Part shown: piece by piece, positions 2,251 through 63,915 of the stretch
Position numbering within the stretch: position 1 is the first letter of the stretch
Layout: the number at the start of each line of letters is the position of its first letter
DNA from: Diphasiastrum complanatum
Lineage: Eukaryota > Streptophyta > Lycopodiopsida > Lycopodiales > Lycopodiaceae
NCBI GenBank assembly: GCA_029204225.1
Contig: CM055095.1
Coordinates: 47,194,510 to 47,258,509 of the forward strand
Length of the DNA stretch: 64,000 bases
Direction: 5' to 3'
Position numbers and translations under genes: made by a program
Notes under the pieces: model-generated
The model's database searches: none
Seen by the model: the letters and a program-made list of their open reading frames with translations, nothing else
Told to the model about the DNA's origin: nothing

Positions 2251-2262
2251 CCCCCTCTTAAT
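2251..2262 (-). other. polypurine tract (plus-strand primer)
   Basis: The minus strand reads TTAAGAGGGGG directly before TGTTGG, the standard arrangement of a polypurine tract and LTR start in Copia elements. It lies within the last codons and stop region of the RNase H frame. Confidence 0.6.
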
Positions 2263-3572
2263 CTGGATCTGTGAATGCCTTGATCTTCAAACTAAGCAAT
2301 GCACAAAACTTGTTGTGTGCATTAACACTTAATGCCTTTGTAAATATATTTGCAACCATGTCCTGCGTTCTACAGTACGTCAAGCTTATCTCCTTGTTGA
2401 GAACTTTGCCCATGATATAGTGATATCGGATCTCAATGTGCTTACTCCTAGAGTGAAATCTAGGGTTGGTCGATAAGCCAATAGCACTCTGATTATCATA
2501 GAATATGATAGTAGGGCTGTACTGATTCAAACTAATGTCTGACAGTAAATTTCTCAACCAAAACGTTTCTTTTATAGATTGAGAAACAGCAATGTATTTT
2601 GCTTCTGTAGATGAAAGAGCGATAGAGGTTTGCTTGCGATTGTTCCATGAGATAGGACTGTCGTTGAAGAAGAATGTAAATCCAGATGTGGACTTGCGAT
2701 TGTCTACATCTCCTCTCCAACTTGCATCAAAAATATCCACTGAGCTTATGAAGATTGTCGTTATTGACTTCTCCATAGCAAATGCACTGGTTCATGGTAG
2801 CGCGAATATACCTCATGACTCTTATGAGAGCCTTCCAATAAGTAATGCCAAGATTAGCCATAAATTGGCTGAGTGAGCTTACTGCAAAAGAGATGTCTAG
2901 TCTTGTATAGACCATTGCGTACATGAGAGATCCGAGTATCGATCGATAAGGATACTCTCTCATATGCTCCTCTTCCTGCTTGGTCTGGGGACATTGGTCC
3001 TTTGACAAACGCAAGTCTAGATCCATTGGTAAGTGAGCTAATTTACAATTCATTAGATTGTATCTATCAAAAACATTGTGAAGATACCTTTGCTGAATGA
3101 TATAGATCAGTTGTCTCACTCTGTCTCTGTGGATCTGTATGCCTAGACAGAAGTGAGCTTCGCTTAGATCAGTCATGTCGAACTCAGAAAACATCATCTT
3201 TTTAGAATCCTTGACCAAATTGGTATTGTTGCTGAGAAGCAATGTATCATCCACGTATAGAGTGATGATAATGAAGGATTGTTGCACCGACTTGGAATAG
3301 ACGTTGCAATCAACAGTGCTTGGTTGGAAACCTTGTTCGATGAGGAATGTGTTGAACCTTTGAAACCAAGCTCTAGTAGACTGTTTCAAGCCGTAGAGTG
3401 CCTTATGGAGTTTATAGACATGATTTTTCATACTTTCCAGAATGCATCCTTCGGGCTGGATCATGTAGATGTCTTCTTGTATAACTCCATTCAGATAAGC
3501 TATTTGTACATCAAATTGATGCACTTTGAGGTCGGCAGCTGCAGCATATAATAAAAGGACTCGTAATGTCAC
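2258..3572 (-). pseudogene. Copia pol fragment: reverse transcriptase + RNase H
   Basis: A 298-residue frame (3623 to 2727) followed by a 172-residue frame (2776 to 2258) gives a near-complete C-terminal Copia polyprotein. RT shows the HQFDVQIAYLNG block, LYGLKQS, the catalytic YVDD within LYVDDTLLLS, and an FCLGIQIHRD-like stretch. RNase H shows DWRGDVDNRKSTSGF-like residues (here SWRGDVDNRKST), SSTEAKYIAVSQ, DNQSAIGLS and the SKHIEIRYH / IFTKAL ending. The two frames overlap near 2750, so one frameshift separates the fingers-palm region from RNase H. Gag, protease and integrase are missing: at 3561-3572 the frame runs instead into sequence encoding a DNA methyltransferase. It is non-autonomous and inactive as it stands. 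Confidence 0.9.
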
Positions 3573-4901
3573 TACCGCTAAATAGATCCACAACCCAATC
3601 AGTTGGATGAGAAAAAATATCAATTAAATGATTAATTAATTGTTGTGGCTTTTGGTAGGGACAAGCCACGGAACCCGTCATTGGATTCTTTTGTTTCTTG
3701 GTCATGGCTGGATACTGGAAGAAGTTTCCAAAACTTGTCAATCCAGAAGTGTTGTAATGAAGCATCGAACGTTTGTCATCCAAAGAATAATAACCGATGG
3801 TTATGTATTCTATTTCACTAGCTTTAAAATAAAAAATTTAAAATATAATTATGAATTAAAATACGAATCAATAATTAAGGAACTTAAAAACTTACCACAC
3901 AACATTTTCTATTTCCACATTATAGAAAGTTAGTGGAGCTTTCTATATTGAAGTTGACTGCCAAGAAGAATGAAAAATAACAACTCTCCAAGCTGGAAAA
4001 GTTGTGACTTTGAGAAAATCTTGCATGAAACTATGGATTTTAGTGAATTTGAAGGGGAAATCTTCATTTAATGATTCCTTCATCTGAAATCCATATGGTA
4101 TATCGGCAATGCAGAGTGTATAAGGCTTTTTTTTTTAATTTTGAAATTTTTCTATAATCGTCCTCCTCAACTGAGTAAAAGCATGGTTGATCATCGACAC
4201 TTTTGGGAAGGTAGGTCTCTAATGGATCCTCCTCCGCAATGGTCTCACCCCGTGCTAATCTCTCTGTGTCTCTTTTTTCTGCTTTTGCCTTTGAAATATG
4301 TCTCTTGAATTGCTTTGGAAGGACTTTGTTTTTCTTATATTCGGGAGACTGAAAAAGAAAAAGCTATGCTTAGCATGGGAGACATAAAATATAAAATAGA
4401 ATAGGAGACTTAAAGTATCAAAAAGAAATAATTCAATAAAGAAAAAACTATGTTTAGCATAGGAGACATAAAATATAAAAAATAAACAATTAATAAGCAC
4501 CTATGCTAAGCATGGGTGAAATAAATACCATGTCTCTAAACAAAATCAGAAATGGACTCAAAGATTCATTTCGGCTGCTCAGAGGATAAAGCCTCTGGCA
4601 CTCTTCGAAATCTTGACAATTTAATCCTGTCACAAAGGCTTCTTGAACTTTCATAAATAATTTATGCCTGCATTTAAAAAGTATAATTGTTAAAAATCCA
4701 ACAAAATCATGAAAATCACTTTATTACAAAAAGTAACATAAAAATAAATATTTAGATTATGACTATTACCTTTGAAATTCTTTTCTCATTTCTGCCAAAG
4801 AAATTTGACCATTGGCAACTCTAGAAAGAACACTTATTATTAGCTCTGAAGAGCTAATCCCTTGCATCTTGAACTTGATCCATGGGCTGAATTGGTCTTT
4901 G
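3568..4901 (-). pseudogene. truncated beta-class DNA methyltransferase (N6/N4-type) gene with introns
   Basis: Four minus-strand segments join in phase by GT-AG splicing: 4901-4770 (start tentative), 4667-4529, 4348-3896 and 3817-3568. The introns are 4769-4668, 4528-4349 (acceptor after CTTTTTCTTTTTCAG) and 3895-3818 (donor GTAAGT). The third exon encodes ADIPYGF (4090-4104), matching the catalytic DPPY motif IV. The last encodes KNPMTGSVACPYQKPQQLI and then DWVVDLFSGS (3571-3588), matching motif X/I, the SAM-binding DxFxGSG loop. Catalytic motif before SAM motif is the permuted beta order of PF01555-like DNA methylases, unlike the DPPW of MT-A70 proteins. Defects: a 10-A run (about 4127-4136) is one base out of frame, there is an in-frame TAG near 3935, and the SAM loop is cut after SGS where Copia pol begins. 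A lysine/glutamate-rich linker precedes motif IV. Base specificity cannot be told from sequence. Confidence 0.72.
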
Positions 4902-19038: not shown

Positions 19039-19141
19039 TAGACTCCCACTGACATCATCATAGTTTATGCACTTTTATTTTTAATGCCCGCAAGCTTCGC
19101 TCTTGTTTAAGATTACTTTTGTTTAAACTTCCCTTTTCGAG

Positions 19142-20273
19142 ATGTATATATCTTTTTCATTAATGTACTTAGTACTTTTTACTATGAATAAATGCACGAG
19201 AGGGTGTTTCTTCAAAACAAGCTTAAGAAATGGTTTTACGACGATGAAGGATGGCGATCCAAAACGTAACGAGGATCGCAAATCCTCGCTTTCGTTGCAG
19301 CAATTTTCTATTTTTGCTGTGGATACAAATCAATGGATGTGCATCAAATGGCCTTTCCCAACACAAACGCAATCTGATACTAGTTCAAGCTTGAACAATC
19401 TAGGTTGTAAGCTGGAGCTGCCATGGCCTTTCAAAACCCTAAAGCTTCTCATGGATCGGATGCAGCACCGGTCCAGGATCTCTTCTTCTTCTTCTTCTTT
19501 ATCTTCCTTACAATATCTTCTGCAGCAAAAGCAGAAGCAAAATTCTGGAAGTATGGCAACGTATGATGATACTAGCATGGAATCCTCTCAATCCTTCATG
19601 AGCATTGCGTCTGTGCCTTTTATGAAGAAGATGTTCTCGACAGCGCAGGATTTAAGCAAAAATATTAGAGGTTACGGAACGACGAAGGGTGGACCTAAAG
19701 CTGGATTATCGGCAGAAGATCAGGGAGAAGCCGAAGAGCGAGCGCTTGCACTTGCATTGGCAAGTAGAAAACGAGCAGTTCTTCTTGAGTTTTACTCCCC
19801 GAAATGTAGTTTGTGTCAGTCGCTACTCAAGCTGGTGATGGGAATTGAAAAGAAAAATCAAGATTGGCTTGCAATTGTAATGGCAGACGTTGAGAACAAA
19901 CGATGGCTTCCGGAGGTTACAATTTTCTCTGATAGTGAACTTTATTTATGAAATAGTTTAGGCTTCTGTCCGTGATCACTCGCATCAATCTCTCTTCTTT
20001 TCTGCTTATGACATAATGTGTGTTCTGTCTTCAACTTTGCAGGTTTTGCATTATGATATAAAGTATGTGCCTTGTTTCGTACTTCTTGACTACTACGGTA
20101 ATGCTTTGGCGAAGACTGGGGTGCCTTACAGCCGCCAGCATGTCATCCAAGGATTGTCATATCTTCTAGAGAGTATGAAACCAATCAAGAGGAGGGTAAA
20201 ACGCATTTCACCATTAGCAGAAGAGGATGCCATAAAGGAAAGCGATGATTCTCACCCAAAACCGTCCACCTAA
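19142..20273 (+). CDS. thioredoxin-fold protein (plant thioredoxin-like superfamily), two exons
   Basis: Exon 1 (19142-19915) and exon 2 (20043-20273) flank a 127-base GT-AG intron and join in phase 0, giving 334 residues. The C-terminal domain is thioredoxin-like: [17 protein letters not shown] carries the redox pair C222-S-L-C225, [13 protein letters not shown] follows, and after the splice [16 protein letters not shown] supplies the cis-proline (P268), then [20 protein letters not shown]. Plants have a family with just this CxxC variant and ending, distinct from the WCGPC of classical thioredoxins. Its substrate is unknown to me. Residues 104-137 are serine/arginine/glutamine-rich; starting at M104 (19451) would give an organelle-transit-like N-terminus, so the true start may be there rather than at the upstream ATG. 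The basic tail ([15 protein letters not shown]) follows the domain. No stop or frameshift interrupts it, so it is the one gene here that looks functional. Confidence 0.85.
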
Positions 20274-23504: not shown

Positions 23505-25641
23505 GTGGCCCCAACTCATATCTTGAAGGGGGATAGCCCACGTAGTGTGAATGTTGAAGTTTTTCCAGATTTGGTACCATCCTCTATTTCAGGAGATAAG
23601 GGGCAGCAATCAACCAATTTTGAACTACCCAACACCTCATCAAGTTTAGAGCCTAATGTTCATCAAGAACCACCCATTGTTGCTCAAAATCAGCTTGTAG
23701 GAACTGTTGGACAGCAAGGACTAGTTTTGGAAGATCTTGGACAGCCAAGTGTAGTGTCGGAAGATCTTGGACAACAAATTGCAAGAAGAGACATGGTTGT
23801 TGGACAACCTAAAACAGTCCCACGGTGTCTGTTGTCGACTTTGGGGGACATCAAAGTAAGTTCATTTTATCATGGAAAGACACACGTGCCTCTACAAAAT
23901 CAGTGGACTATACTGATTTTTCAGATTTTGCTCTTACATCTCATGAAGATGTTGCAGAAGAACTTGTTTTTTATGAGCAAGCCATGGGAGTAAAATGTTG
24001 GGAGGATGCGATGCAAGATGAGTATGGCTCACTCATGAAGAACCGGATTTGGGTTCTTGTTGATCTTCCTCATGGGAAGAAGGCAATTGGTTCTAAATGG
24101 GTATACAAAATCAAGTATAAGGCAAATCGTACCATTGAAAGGTACAAGGCAAGGCTTGTTGCCACAGGCTATGCTCAGCAAAAGGGGATTGATTATGAGG
24201 AGACTTTTTCTCCTACTTCTTGGATGACTACCGTGAGGGTAGTAACCTCTTTGGCTGCCCATTTTGGTTGGCATTTGCGGCAACTTGACATAAAGACATT
24301 ATTCCTCAATGGTGATCTCAATGAGGAAGTGTACCTTCAACAACCTGCTCTGATCTCTGTGGGCATGTAAGCGTCGTCGTAGTAGTCATCATCCTCGGGT
24401 ACTGAAACACGTAATCTCCGTCTGAAGGGTGAAAAATTCGCTCACAGATCGAAAGAAAACAAAAAAGACAAACTTTATCTTCTTGGCCTAAATTTTGGTG
24501 AGAAGGCCAAGAAAATAAAGTTTGTCTTCTCAAGAAGGCACTTTATGGACTAAAGCAAGCCCCAAGGATCTGGTATCAAAAGATACATGCCTACTTTTGT
24601 GATCATGAGTTTACTAATAGTCCTAGCGAATCTACTCTTTATGTCAAGCATACTTCAGATTATATCATCATTATTTTGCTTCATGTTGATGATATTATTA
24701 ATACGGGAAGTAATAAGCAGCAGATTGATGTCGTAATATTTGATCTGGGTATGGTTTTTGAAACCTCAGATTTAGGCCTATTGCACTTTTATCTTGGTCT
24801 TGAATTTGTACAAGGAGGAGTTGAAATTTTCATCTCTCAAGAACACTACATTGGGCAGATTTTGAAGTAGTTCAAGATGGAAGATTGCAAGTCGGTTGCT
24901 ACACCTATGAAGATAGGCTTGAAATTAAGTAGTCAAAGTGATGGGGAACCATTTGATACTACTTTTTATTGTCAAGCTATTGGCTGTTTCATTTACCTAT
25001 GTAATTTAAGATCAGACATTTCTTATAGTGTCTCACTCATGAGTCAATTCATGCATGCCCCGATGACATCACATTGGAAAGCGTTGAAGGGGATCTTTTG
25101 ATATCTTCAAGGAACAAGAAGTCATGGATTGGTTTTTCCTGCGTGTGATGATGCATGTTTGGTTGGTTTTAGTGACTCGAATTGGGGTGGAGATCAAGAC
25201 ACTAGACACTCTACAAGTGGACATTGCTTTTTTTATGGAAATTCTGCAATTTCTTGGTGAAGTAAAAGGCAGCCCACTGTTGCTACTTCTTCTAGTGAGG
25301 CAGAATATAGAGCGATATTTTCAGCCACAACGAAGTGTTTATGGCTGAGAAGACTACTTGTTGACATTAAGTTTGGCGAGCCCTCAACCACTCTTATCCT
25401 ACGTGATAGTCAAAGTGTTATTGCCATTGCACAAAATCCTGTTTTTCATGCGAGGACGAAGCACATCGAGATCCATTGTCACTTTGTTCGGGAGAGACTT
25501 CATGATCGAGACATTTTACTTTAGTATTGTCCTACAGAGGATAATATTGCGGACCTCTTCACTAAGGCATTGCCTAGAGAGAAATTTGAAGCTTTATGCA
25601 AAGCTTTAAATTTAAAACCACGTGGTGGCTTTGTTACATAG
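23505..25641 (+). pseudogene. Copia reverse transcriptase + RNase H, broken
   Basis: A spacer (23505-23820) is followed by the RT opening WEDAMQDEYGSLMKN, then VDLPHGKKAIGSKWVYKIKY, RYKARLVATGYAQQKGIDYE, LDIKTLFLNGDLNEEVYLQQ (24370 end). A foreign, partly palindromic insert lies at about 24340-24504. RT then resumes with KVCLLKKALYGLKQAPRIWY, LLHVDDIINTGSN (HVDD in place of YVDD), SDLGLLHFYLGLEF, and RNase H follows with STSGHCFFYG, SSSEAEYRAIF, DSQSVIAIAQNP, RTKHIEIHCHFVRE and IADLFTKALP. Several frameshifts and stops are present. Confidence 0.88.
24466..24527. repeat. inverted repeat inside Copia RT
   Basis: Arms 24466-24488 and 24505-24527 are reverse complements with one mismatch and a 16-base spacer. 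The right arm is native RT sequence; the left arm belongs to an inserted stretch starting near 24340 that is not Copia in its own orientation. Confidence 0.85.
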
Positions 25642-62044: not shown

Positions 62045-63915
62045 GGCCTTAAGGCACACTCATAGTAGTCGAAATCTCATCCCCAATCATGTCCAACATA
62101 TAAAAGGAAAAGAATGCATAATAATGAAGCAACAAGTCGAAGGGTGAGGATTTGCATGCTCCATCCGAAGTAGGAAACCAACATAAACTCGGCAATAAGT
62201 CGAAACATGGACTTGTAATCCATCATAGGCTTCCACATCACTCGATAAAACTTCTTACCATAAGGACAATAGAAAGGGTACCAAACTCTTTTGGCATCAC
62301 ATCCTCCCAAACCTTACCATCAATGACTTGCTCACAGAGAATAGACAATGTACCAACATCATGATGAAGAGTAAGTGTAGAACCAAAAAAATCAACAAGA
62401 GGTATTGATTTTAAAGTGGCATGTGCCATTGCTTCGTAGTAAGACATTTCTTTGCTGTCCTGCAAAGTCTCCAATAGCCGACAAGGAACTGTTATGGGCT
62501 GTTCAACACTTTGCTACCCAAAGTATTCTCAACATGGACCATGTTGTCCATAATCTTTTGCAGGCCGTTCCCGAAGCATAATGGACTGCTCCTGATGTAA
62601 AATGGGTTTGTAAATGACCAAGACAAGATGATTGAACCTGCTGTCCAACATCTTCATCGTAAAAATTTGGCAAACTATCAAGAAATGCATCAACAATGGC
62701 GTCATTAAAGCTGTCCTTGGAAGAGTTATGGGATGACATAGAAGATTCTTCAAGTAATGAAAAATTCTCTCCAAACAAATGCTCGCTCTTTACACTTTGA
62801 ACAAAAGTACTAATTGACATAGACGGTTTCAAAGAGTGCTCGAATTTTTCAGCCTTTTCACTAATGCATCCATCACATGCATCAACTTGCGGCGACTTGA
62901 AAAAAGAAGATTGCTTCAACAAACTTGAACTTGCAAAAGGATGATGATTCTTTACTCGGTACATCTTCAAAAGTGTTTCCCACGCACTTTTAGAAGTCTT
63001 GCAAAATCTAAGGTGTGGTAAGATAGATCTTGTTACCAATAAAGCAATCAAGGAATGGGCTTGATCATCACGCCGATTCCAAATCTTTTACTCTTCCGAA
63101 GGTGGTGATGTCGATGTAGAAGTGCTTGCACTTGAAGATGTAGAAAGAGCCAAGGTAGGTGGCCTCTCTTTGTCACCATTAACTACTTCCCATAAACCTT
63201 TGCCAATGAGTATATTTTTGAGCCTGCAGGCACAAAGAGTAGTTGGAGCCATCCAACCTATCTTCACCCAAAAAAATACCAATTGCTTCCGATTCTTTAG
63301 CCATAACATAAAAATCAGCTTGTAGTAGATAGGAAATAGACTTTCCAAGACAAAATCTACTCAAAGGGCAACAACCTTAAAGTTGAAATTATGAGCACAA
63401 TAGATTGCAATACTCCACATGCAATTTGCTCAACAAATAATGAAATAGGTGGCTGGTTTCTGCACAAAAAACAGAATGCTCACAAATAGGTAGATTTCAA
63501 ATGAAACCAAAACCAAAACCAAAAATTTGTGGCTAAAAAGAGTGCACATTATGTGCATATAGAGCTGATGATAGCGCCCTACTCCAAGCTCACCAACAGG
63601 GAAATTTCAGCAAGAAATGTGTCCAAAACACATATATCTTCATTTGTAGAAGGGCACCCTCCTACAAAGAAGTAAATTTGAAATTTTCAGCATGTAATTG
63701 AGTCAAAATCACATGCAATTGGTTTGAGCATGGGCGCCCTACTGCTAGCTCTCAAATAGGTGAAGGTGCCCTGCAATTTCCTGCAAAAAAGTTATAAGAA
63801 GATGAACAGATTCTTTTCCTGCAAAAATCAGCAGCTTGATGAGTTTTTGCTACCAAAAGGGGAAGAAGATAGCTTCCTATTGGGTGCCCTCCTGCAAGCA
63901 ATCTGATCACCTAAA
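62045..63915 (-). pseudogene. pol-less Copia internal region: gag start plus serine-rich ORF
   Basis: Gag pieces on the minus strand are LKNILIGKGLWEVVNGDKER (63348 frame) and LLVTRSILPHLRFCKTSKSA followed by WETLLKMY (63051 frame). The frame then runs, without pol, into a serine-rich segment (SSFFKSPQVDACDGCISEKA, ENFSLLEESSMSSHNSSKDS) to 62503. A last frame (62474-62238) ends in GKVWEDVMPKEFGTL, like the start of a Copia RT (WEDAMxxE). About 1.87 kb separates primer site and 3' LTR, so protease, integrase and RT are absent. Confidence 0.6.

Follow-up and report, generated by a model that had tools for sequence, protein, structure and literature searches.

The DNA analysed here is a 64,000-nucleotide stretch of the Diphasiastrum complanatum genome (contig CM055095.1, forward-strand positions 47,194,510 to 47,258,509), hereafter the window, in which positions 4867-3560 of the minus strand hold four exon remnants of a spliced, now decayed DNA methyltransferase gene of the beta class (PF01555 type). 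We consider it likely that this piece is the relic of a transposon of about 9 kb, bounded by terminal inverted repeats (TIRs), that carries a DUF7869 transposase gene together with the spliced methyltransferase gene, the latter being kept by selection. The methyltransferase fragment belongs to a high-copy TIR DNA transposon and not to a host gene family. The copies display common ends, target site duplications (TSDs) of 4 bp, an empty site, two genes on opposite strands and a high copy number; individual copies decay in a near-neutral manner, the ratio of nonsynonymous to synonymous divergence (dN/dS) between diverged copies is low, and the window copy bears several lesions.

The genome that was searched comprises 1.745 Gb in 5,176 contigs and yields seven LEAFY SAM-domain matches from 39 candidates, which mark it as that of a land plant or a close relative; all copy counts given here are lower bounds, to be read with the caveat that some small contigs duplicate chromosome loci and that one copy can yield two matches. 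The PF01555 profile exceeded its cut-off at 150 of the 150 places scored (the best 150 of 1,605 candidates), and a search of this genome with the window protein returned 187 matches, 150 of its 3,120 candidates having been scored; taken together, the two lists touch every one of C1 to C24. Stretches of 10 kb at eight sister loci all align with parts of the window piece at 83-94% DNA identity, and six of the eight (L041-L046) give long mutual alignments across exons, introns and intergenic DNA, mostly at 84-95%. Common edges of the element were found on the right in L042, L043, L044 and L046, and on the left in L047+L041 and L048+L044. The TIRs read AACACGATGAC on the left and GTCATCATGTT on the right (GTCATCATATT in one copy), with 10 of 11 bases complementary, and a copy covered end to end measures 9,108 bp. 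When six further copies were probed at their ends, the left end was present in all six and both ends in three, the right end of the remaining three lying beyond the stretch examined. Duplications of 4 bp (AACT, TTAA and GTAG) flank the element at all three independent sites where both ends are readable. The AACT copy (C17:38.03 M) and the copy at C17:38163575-38172682 have identical flanks and therefore represent one insertion, recently duplicated in inverted orientation with its surroundings, rather than two insertions; the stretches C17:38.033-38.043 M and C17:38.163-38.173 M are inverted, about 120 kb apart and 100% identical over the 180-bp 5' end. Once the 9,108-bp element and one AACT are taken out, the flanks join into a continuous Gypsy integrase frame (...WGIDFMGPIHPASSSRKHHIVVATNYFTKWAE...), which reconstitutes the empty site. 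The 180-bp left (5') end piece recurs with 95-100% identity at 40 of 40 places scored (the best 40 of 1,097 candidates). In the copy L048+L044, the TIRs, the TSD and DUF7869 are present, and no retrotransposon structure (reverse transcriptase, long terminal repeats or long interspersed element) was found. Four PF01555 matches on the minus strand at C22:12333634-12347569, spaced by about 4.5 kb, form a tandem array of methyltransferase segments.

The second gene of the element, a DUF7869 (PF25273) gene (E 1e-45 to 1.8e-49), lies on the other strand from the methyltransferase. Both genes point outwards from a spacer in the centre of the element, and in the copies that were read directly the pair sits inside the same repeat. 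Divergent DUF7869-methyltransferase pairs, 5.2-7.0 kb apart, occur at six loci (two of them, on C17, being one duplicated insertion), in a comparison of 150 DUF7869 matches, 40 five-prime ends, 40 full three-prime matches (two short ones omitted) and 33 hand-picked methyltransferase entries. Genome-wide, all 150 DUF7869 places scored were over the cut-off (the best 150 of 2,953 candidates), a count that pools this element family with possible other families. The 122 relatives of DUF7869 include proteins of Adiantum, Riccia, bivalve molluscs, a lancelet and a sea anemone, and across 58 aligned relatives the residues D, N, N, H, T and D are invariant within LDNxxRENKN and GHTHDxIDQMF. From the copy number and the invariant acidic residues, we infer that DUF7869 is a DDE-type transposase. 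The C-terminal part of the gene (L041:1-98 and L047:3430-4000, minus strand; ...LVALLASENNEGHPFWIAKVLGC...RVRWL) resembles by eye a chromatin reader of the PWWP/Tudor kind, and it gave no Pfam match at its cut-off. Imperfect palindromes, with arms about 70-85% identical and differing among copies, lie between both genes and are a candidate regulatory or origin-like region:

L042:2717-3173 (on reverse complement), L043:2955-3178, L044:2463-2813: intergenic palindromes, from the copy alignment.

In the window, the last segment of the methyltransferase remnant matches PF01555 at 34.3 bits (E 3.1e-8), above the Pfam curated cut-off of 26.7, and the last two segments joined give E 4.3e-8. On the minus strand, motif IV (ADIPYGF, 4107-4087) precedes CPYQKPQQLI (from 3663) and motif I (DLFSGS, 3588-3571), which is the beta order. 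The features of this region are the following.

4770 to 4867, minus strand: exon A remnant of the methyltransferase, MQGISSSELIISVLSRVANGQISLAEMRKEFQR, its 5' side truncated mid-exon.
4668 to 4769, minus strand: intron 1, GT-AG, intact, frame kept.
4529 to 4667, minus strand: exon B, HKLFMKVQEAFVTGL...ILFRDM, from sister-copy alignment and spliced translation.
4349 to 4528, minus strand: intron 2, GT-AG, intact, frame kept.
3896 to 4348, minus strand: exon C/D with motif IV ADIPYGF, an undivided exon in sister copy L044, broken here.
3820 to 3895, minus strand: intron 3 remnant, donor at 3895, acceptor deleted (four sister copies aligned).
About 3560 to 3819, minus strand: exon E remnant, ...SEIEYITIGYYSLDDKRSMLHYN...GSVACPYQKPQQLI...DWVVDLFSGS (motif I), PF01555 profile positions 134-192.
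2258 to 3569, minus strand: truncated Copia (Ty1) reverse transcriptase/RNase H frames, a separate mobile element, adjoining the methyltransferase remnant at about 3560.

When introns 1 and 2 are spliced out, the frame is continuous (MQGISS...FQR/HKLF...RDM/SPEYKK). Compared with the sister copies, an 83-bp deletion at about 3821 has taken away the AG acceptor of intron 3 together with some 15 codons (YKPNVRNSGGARLCN). The alignment of four such copies also places at about 4139 a 2-bp deletion that shifts the frame within exon C/D, and the same exon contains an in-frame stop, TAG, at 3945-3943. That the YTLHC and ADIPYGF segments are separated by an intron was rejected, the 2-bp deletion lying within one exon whose frame is open in L044. 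Homology to the sister copies begins at about 4867-4870, mid-exon, and ends at about 3560; the ATG at 4867 is therefore an internal codon and was rejected as a start, sister copy L041 extending upstream of the 5' cut (...EMGISEWKN). The window copy is dead, with both ends cut. Intron 2 contains a short direct repeat (about 4485-4438 and about 4401-4354). A first-pass annotation of the window had described a PF01555-type methyltransferase in permuted beta layout, with a conserved-looking CPYQKPQQLI before the S-adenosylmethionine (SAM) motif, as a decayed, bacterial-type gene with eukaryotic introns in a plant, and had envisaged collinear paralogues in the same genome; all of this is borne out, the paralogues aligning through exons and introns and CPYQKP being kept in diverged copies, and the refuting outcomes that it had named did not occur. 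Of the three phase-keeping GT-AG introns that it proposed, two are intact and the third lacks its acceptor; the frame change before ADIPYGF is the 2-bp deletion and no intron.

The Copia element next to the remnant matches RVT_2 (E 2.6e-46) over profile positions 63-242, starting from about 3569, and its own first 62 positions are absent; the RNase H part is assigned from a reading of the frame and is to be regarded as putative. That a complete Copia inserted into the gene and so produced the 3' cut was rejected, because this Copia has itself lost its 5' part at the breakpoint; the junction therefore joins two truncated elements. Other Copia fragments in the window lie at 23813-24367 on the plus strand (RVT_2, E 1.3e-31) and at 62506-63087 on the minus strand (Retrotran_gag_2, E 2.1e-8).

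The full-length enzyme can be approached through the sister copies. Joined from L041, the METHYLTRANSFERASE gene, which encodes the methyltransferase, yields 894 residues from at least six exons spread over about 3 kb, with an incomplete N end; L044 scores 44.5 bits against PF01555, and no match above its cut-off came from NCBIfam. Motif IV was read in 33 distinct loci and is DIPY in 22, DISY in 3, YIPY in 3, NILY in 2, DIP* in 2 and NIPY in 1, with no instance of DPPY; the diverged copies L006 and L008 likewise have DIPY, which we read as the functional form in this family and the other variants as products of decay. The first-pass annotation had remarked that DIPY in place of DPPY or SPPY leaves the target base open; DIPY is the commonest state of the whole family, the rest being its variants. 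The homologues found outside the genome are Chara braunii CBR_g2669 (P0004), the only named one, and three ENA-derived proteins, which cover the N-terminal half only, with 35-39% identity. CBR_g2669, a gene model, is 26% identical over 73% of the query, matches PF01555 and shares, in the same order, the conserved N-terminal half, WCKPN..GGPR, GSVRCPYQKP and LSGSGT; its motif IV region reads DFLY, whereas DIPY is found here. The N-terminal half is conserved across the Chara and ENA homologues. The diverged copies L006 and L003 share the SAM motif DLFSGSGTTSA and CPYQKP; Chara largely retains both and also has the D and Y of motif IV. When the profile was compared with solved structures, CcrM (PDB 6pbd) came first (3.4e-8), followed by RsrI, MboIIA and DpnA, among others, which we take to be adenine enzymes. 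This ranking points to N6-adenine, but weakly, as the match falls largely in the C-terminal half with the SAM motif. These best matches, CcrM and beta-class N6-adenine methylases, are bacterial; methylases of the CcrM type have a DPPY motif and no introns.

The selection analysis was based on 34 copies picked by the similarity of the non-coding DNA behind the gene, of which 28 remained after six near-identical ones were collapsed, and 24 after four with fewer than 100 of the 142 exon E codons were dropped. Among the 24 copies, nonsynonymous divergence (dN) is 0.079 and synonymous divergence (dS) 0.094, giving a dN/dS of 0.83, and exon E contains a stop codon in 14. In the set of 28, codon positions 1/2/3 differ by 0.075/0.089/0.074 in the first 100 codons of exon E, by 0.109/0.101/0.040 in its last 42 codons and by 0.075/0.086/0.059 in exon D, the value for the intron being 0.094. 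Individual sister copies decay almost neutrally. The four deep copies L002, L003, L006 and L008, compared with the 24, show a dN of 0.13-0.23 and a dS of 1.0-2.1, the latter near saturation, with a dN/dS of 0.09-0.14, or 0.06-0.10 after subtraction of the within-family means (one undefined dS value for L002 was excluded from its mean). In L003, L006 and L008, third positions differ by 0.38-0.50 and second positions by 0.09-0.15; in the less diverged L005, L007, L009 and L025, third positions differ by 0.06-0.14. L002 and L003 differ from each other by 0.125/0.971 (dN/dS). An earlier test on 35 copies, the window included, gave 0.09/0.07/0.17 for positions 1/2/3 and was discarded as biased, its members having been chosen by protein similarity or PF01555 score; the choice by non-coding DNA replaced it. 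The methyltransferase gene seems to be kept by selection: given the free decay of single copies together with strong constraint between diverged ones, the transposon seems to depend on the enzyme and not merely to carry it. Such a pattern would arise if new subfamilies could be founded only by copies with a working gene.

Several points weigh against the reading of the window piece as the relic of a transposon with a selected methyltransferase. Two of the eight 10-kb stretches, L039 and L040, have only fragments in common with the others, and at two places (C12:34.80 M and C15:37.78 M) neighbouring DUF7869 and methyltransferase genes lie on the same strand. The four deep copies are the top of the PF01555 ranking, which favours well-kept proteins, and were read over their methyltransferase genes only; the near-saturation of dS applies to all of them except in the comparison of L006 with L008, and this mutually close pair has a dN/dS of 0.45 (0.081/0.180). 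Motif IV being DIPY and not DPPY or SPPY, with DFLY in the Chara model, methyltransferase activity is therefore not certain. The N-terminal half is possibly ParB-like, since by eye it is ordered like the ParB N-domain (FVxGGxHSxxARxQL...GLTxEEAKLLAWDHN); the PF02195 (ParB) profile, which matches 11 of 14 control genomes, has no match in the whole genome and matches none of the four methyltransferase homologues, and hhalign of the N-terminal half against P1/N15 ParB gave a probability of 0.3% (control 0.6%). The PF02195 negative is weak, because the P1 and N15 ParB proteins themselves escape this profile. Searches with the ParB region in phages and plasmids yielded nothing beyond two plasmid matches at E 4-5.

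The first-pass annotation had placed the gene in a host methyltransferase family, and the PF01555 domain, the spliced structure and the land-plant genome would suit a DN4MT-like family that multiplied through ordinary gene duplication and has transposons as chance neighbours. We regard this as very improbable, as the copies stop at common TIRs with TSDs and an empty site, the transposase gene lies within the same repeat in the directly read copies, and the dispersal extends over C1-C24; the gene is the second one of a DNA transposon. A PF01555 domain is also typical of bacteria, and one could imagine that the assembly contains bacterial contaminants or that the gene came recently from a bacterium, but the introns, the chromosome-size contigs and the many copies reduce the probability of this to almost nothing. 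None of 32 pattern matches in genomes of bacteria and archaea was confirmed as a relative, nor was any of those in viral contigs (0 of 121, 0 of 59 and 0 of 4), and a phage tblastn with the methyltransferase returned six records, each below 40% identity.

More is to be said for a host or bacterial gene that was caught once by the transposon, in Pack-MULE style, and copied passively with no role. The near-neutral decay, with exon E stops in 14 of 24 copies, is in its favour, as is the similarity of exon E, exon D and intron differences among the 28 copies. It is nevertheless improbable in view of the low dN/dS of the four diverged copies at a dS of 1.0-2.1, the excess of third-position over second-position differences in L003, L006 and L008, the Chara homologue with an identical order of parts, and a multi-exon structure retained over about 3 kb. 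It is unlikely, though less so, that the methyltransferase has lost catalysis and serves in DNA binding or as a cofactor of transposition, with no base being modified. The predominance of DIPY, the absence of DPPY, the DFLY of the Chara model and the long conserved N-terminal half would agree with such a role, while the conservation of the SAM motif and CPYQKP in L006, L003 and largely Chara, and of the D and Y of motif IV in Chara as well, speaks for an active enzyme. Moreover, motif IV variants of the form (D/N/S)-x-P-Y occur among N6 methylases.

Returning to a transposon whose methyltransferase is selected, we propose that intact master copies would produce both the transposase and the methyltransferase, and that the N-terminal half may guide the latter to element DNA. 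There it would place N6-methyladenine (6mA), the likelier of the two marks, or N4-methylcytosine (4mC). The mark could shield the element from host silencing by 5-methylcytosine (5mC) and small RNAs, or it could license excision or transposase action on marked or hemimethylated ends. In bacterial IS10, Dam methylation licenses transposase action. Either benefit would account for the retention of the methyltransferase through subfamily turnover. We tentatively suggest, as a possibility below even chances, that a high-copy transposon of a land plant writes its own 6mA or 4mC mark by means of a self-encoded, selection-kept enzyme, apart from host 5mC silencing; if this were true, the genome would hold a second, transposon-made methylome. 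If long reads underlie the genome, data that already exist may be able to tell whether the element bears 6mA or 4mC.

The TSD of Sola1 elements is 4 bp long. By analogy, the element described here probably belongs to the Sola superfamily, an assignment that follows from the 4-bp TSD and a published Ectocarpus element; this likeness is one of TSD length and layout. A TSD of 4 bp is stated for Sola2 in an excerpt of PMC3627910. As described in passages of PMC12477816, Sola1-1_Ec32 of Ectocarpus is also a large DNA transposon with an accessory gene opposite the transposase, ParB-like/N4-N6 methyltransferase in kind, whose product combines a methyltransferase domain (predicted N4mC or N6mA) with a second domain. 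It differs in its length of 21.5 kb compared with 9.1 kb, in its host, a brown alga and not a land plant, and in its product of 1,104 amino acids with a recognised ParB-like domain, whereas none was recognised here by hidden Markov model. Mobile elements with their own DNA methyltransferase also include the LINE/DIRS retrotransposons of Symbiodinium and Klebsormidium, which carry DNMT, and DIRS elements with Dam genes (PMC5890265, in part); these are retrotransposons with C5-cytosine or Dam-type enzymes, in contrast to the present TIR DNA transposon and its beta-class amino-methyltransferase. The N4CMT of bdelloid rotifers is a eukaryotic, spliced PF01555 enzyme of bacterial origin (PMC8885841, in part), but it is a host gene product fused to a chromodomain that acts on transposons, while the enzyme described here is owned by the transposon. 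A passage search of a giant-transposon review (PMC6431247) found ParB, Sola and methylases unmentioned, and searches of open-licence literature, not all of them aimed at this question, brought up no such element in a land plant. Transposon-borne amino-methyltransferases are thus of a kind already known; as far as these searches reach, the land-plant host and the evidence for selection look new. With its numerous copies, legible ends and traceable evolution, this family bears on the question of why certain transposons come with a DNA methyltransferase of their own. It is also a warning that a PF01555 match in a plant genome may mark a gene carried by a transposon rather than a host enzyme.

Elsewhere in the window, an open frame of 274 amino acids at 19127-19948 on the plus strand has a sub-threshold thioredoxin match (E 2.4e-4) and may be an exon of a host gene.

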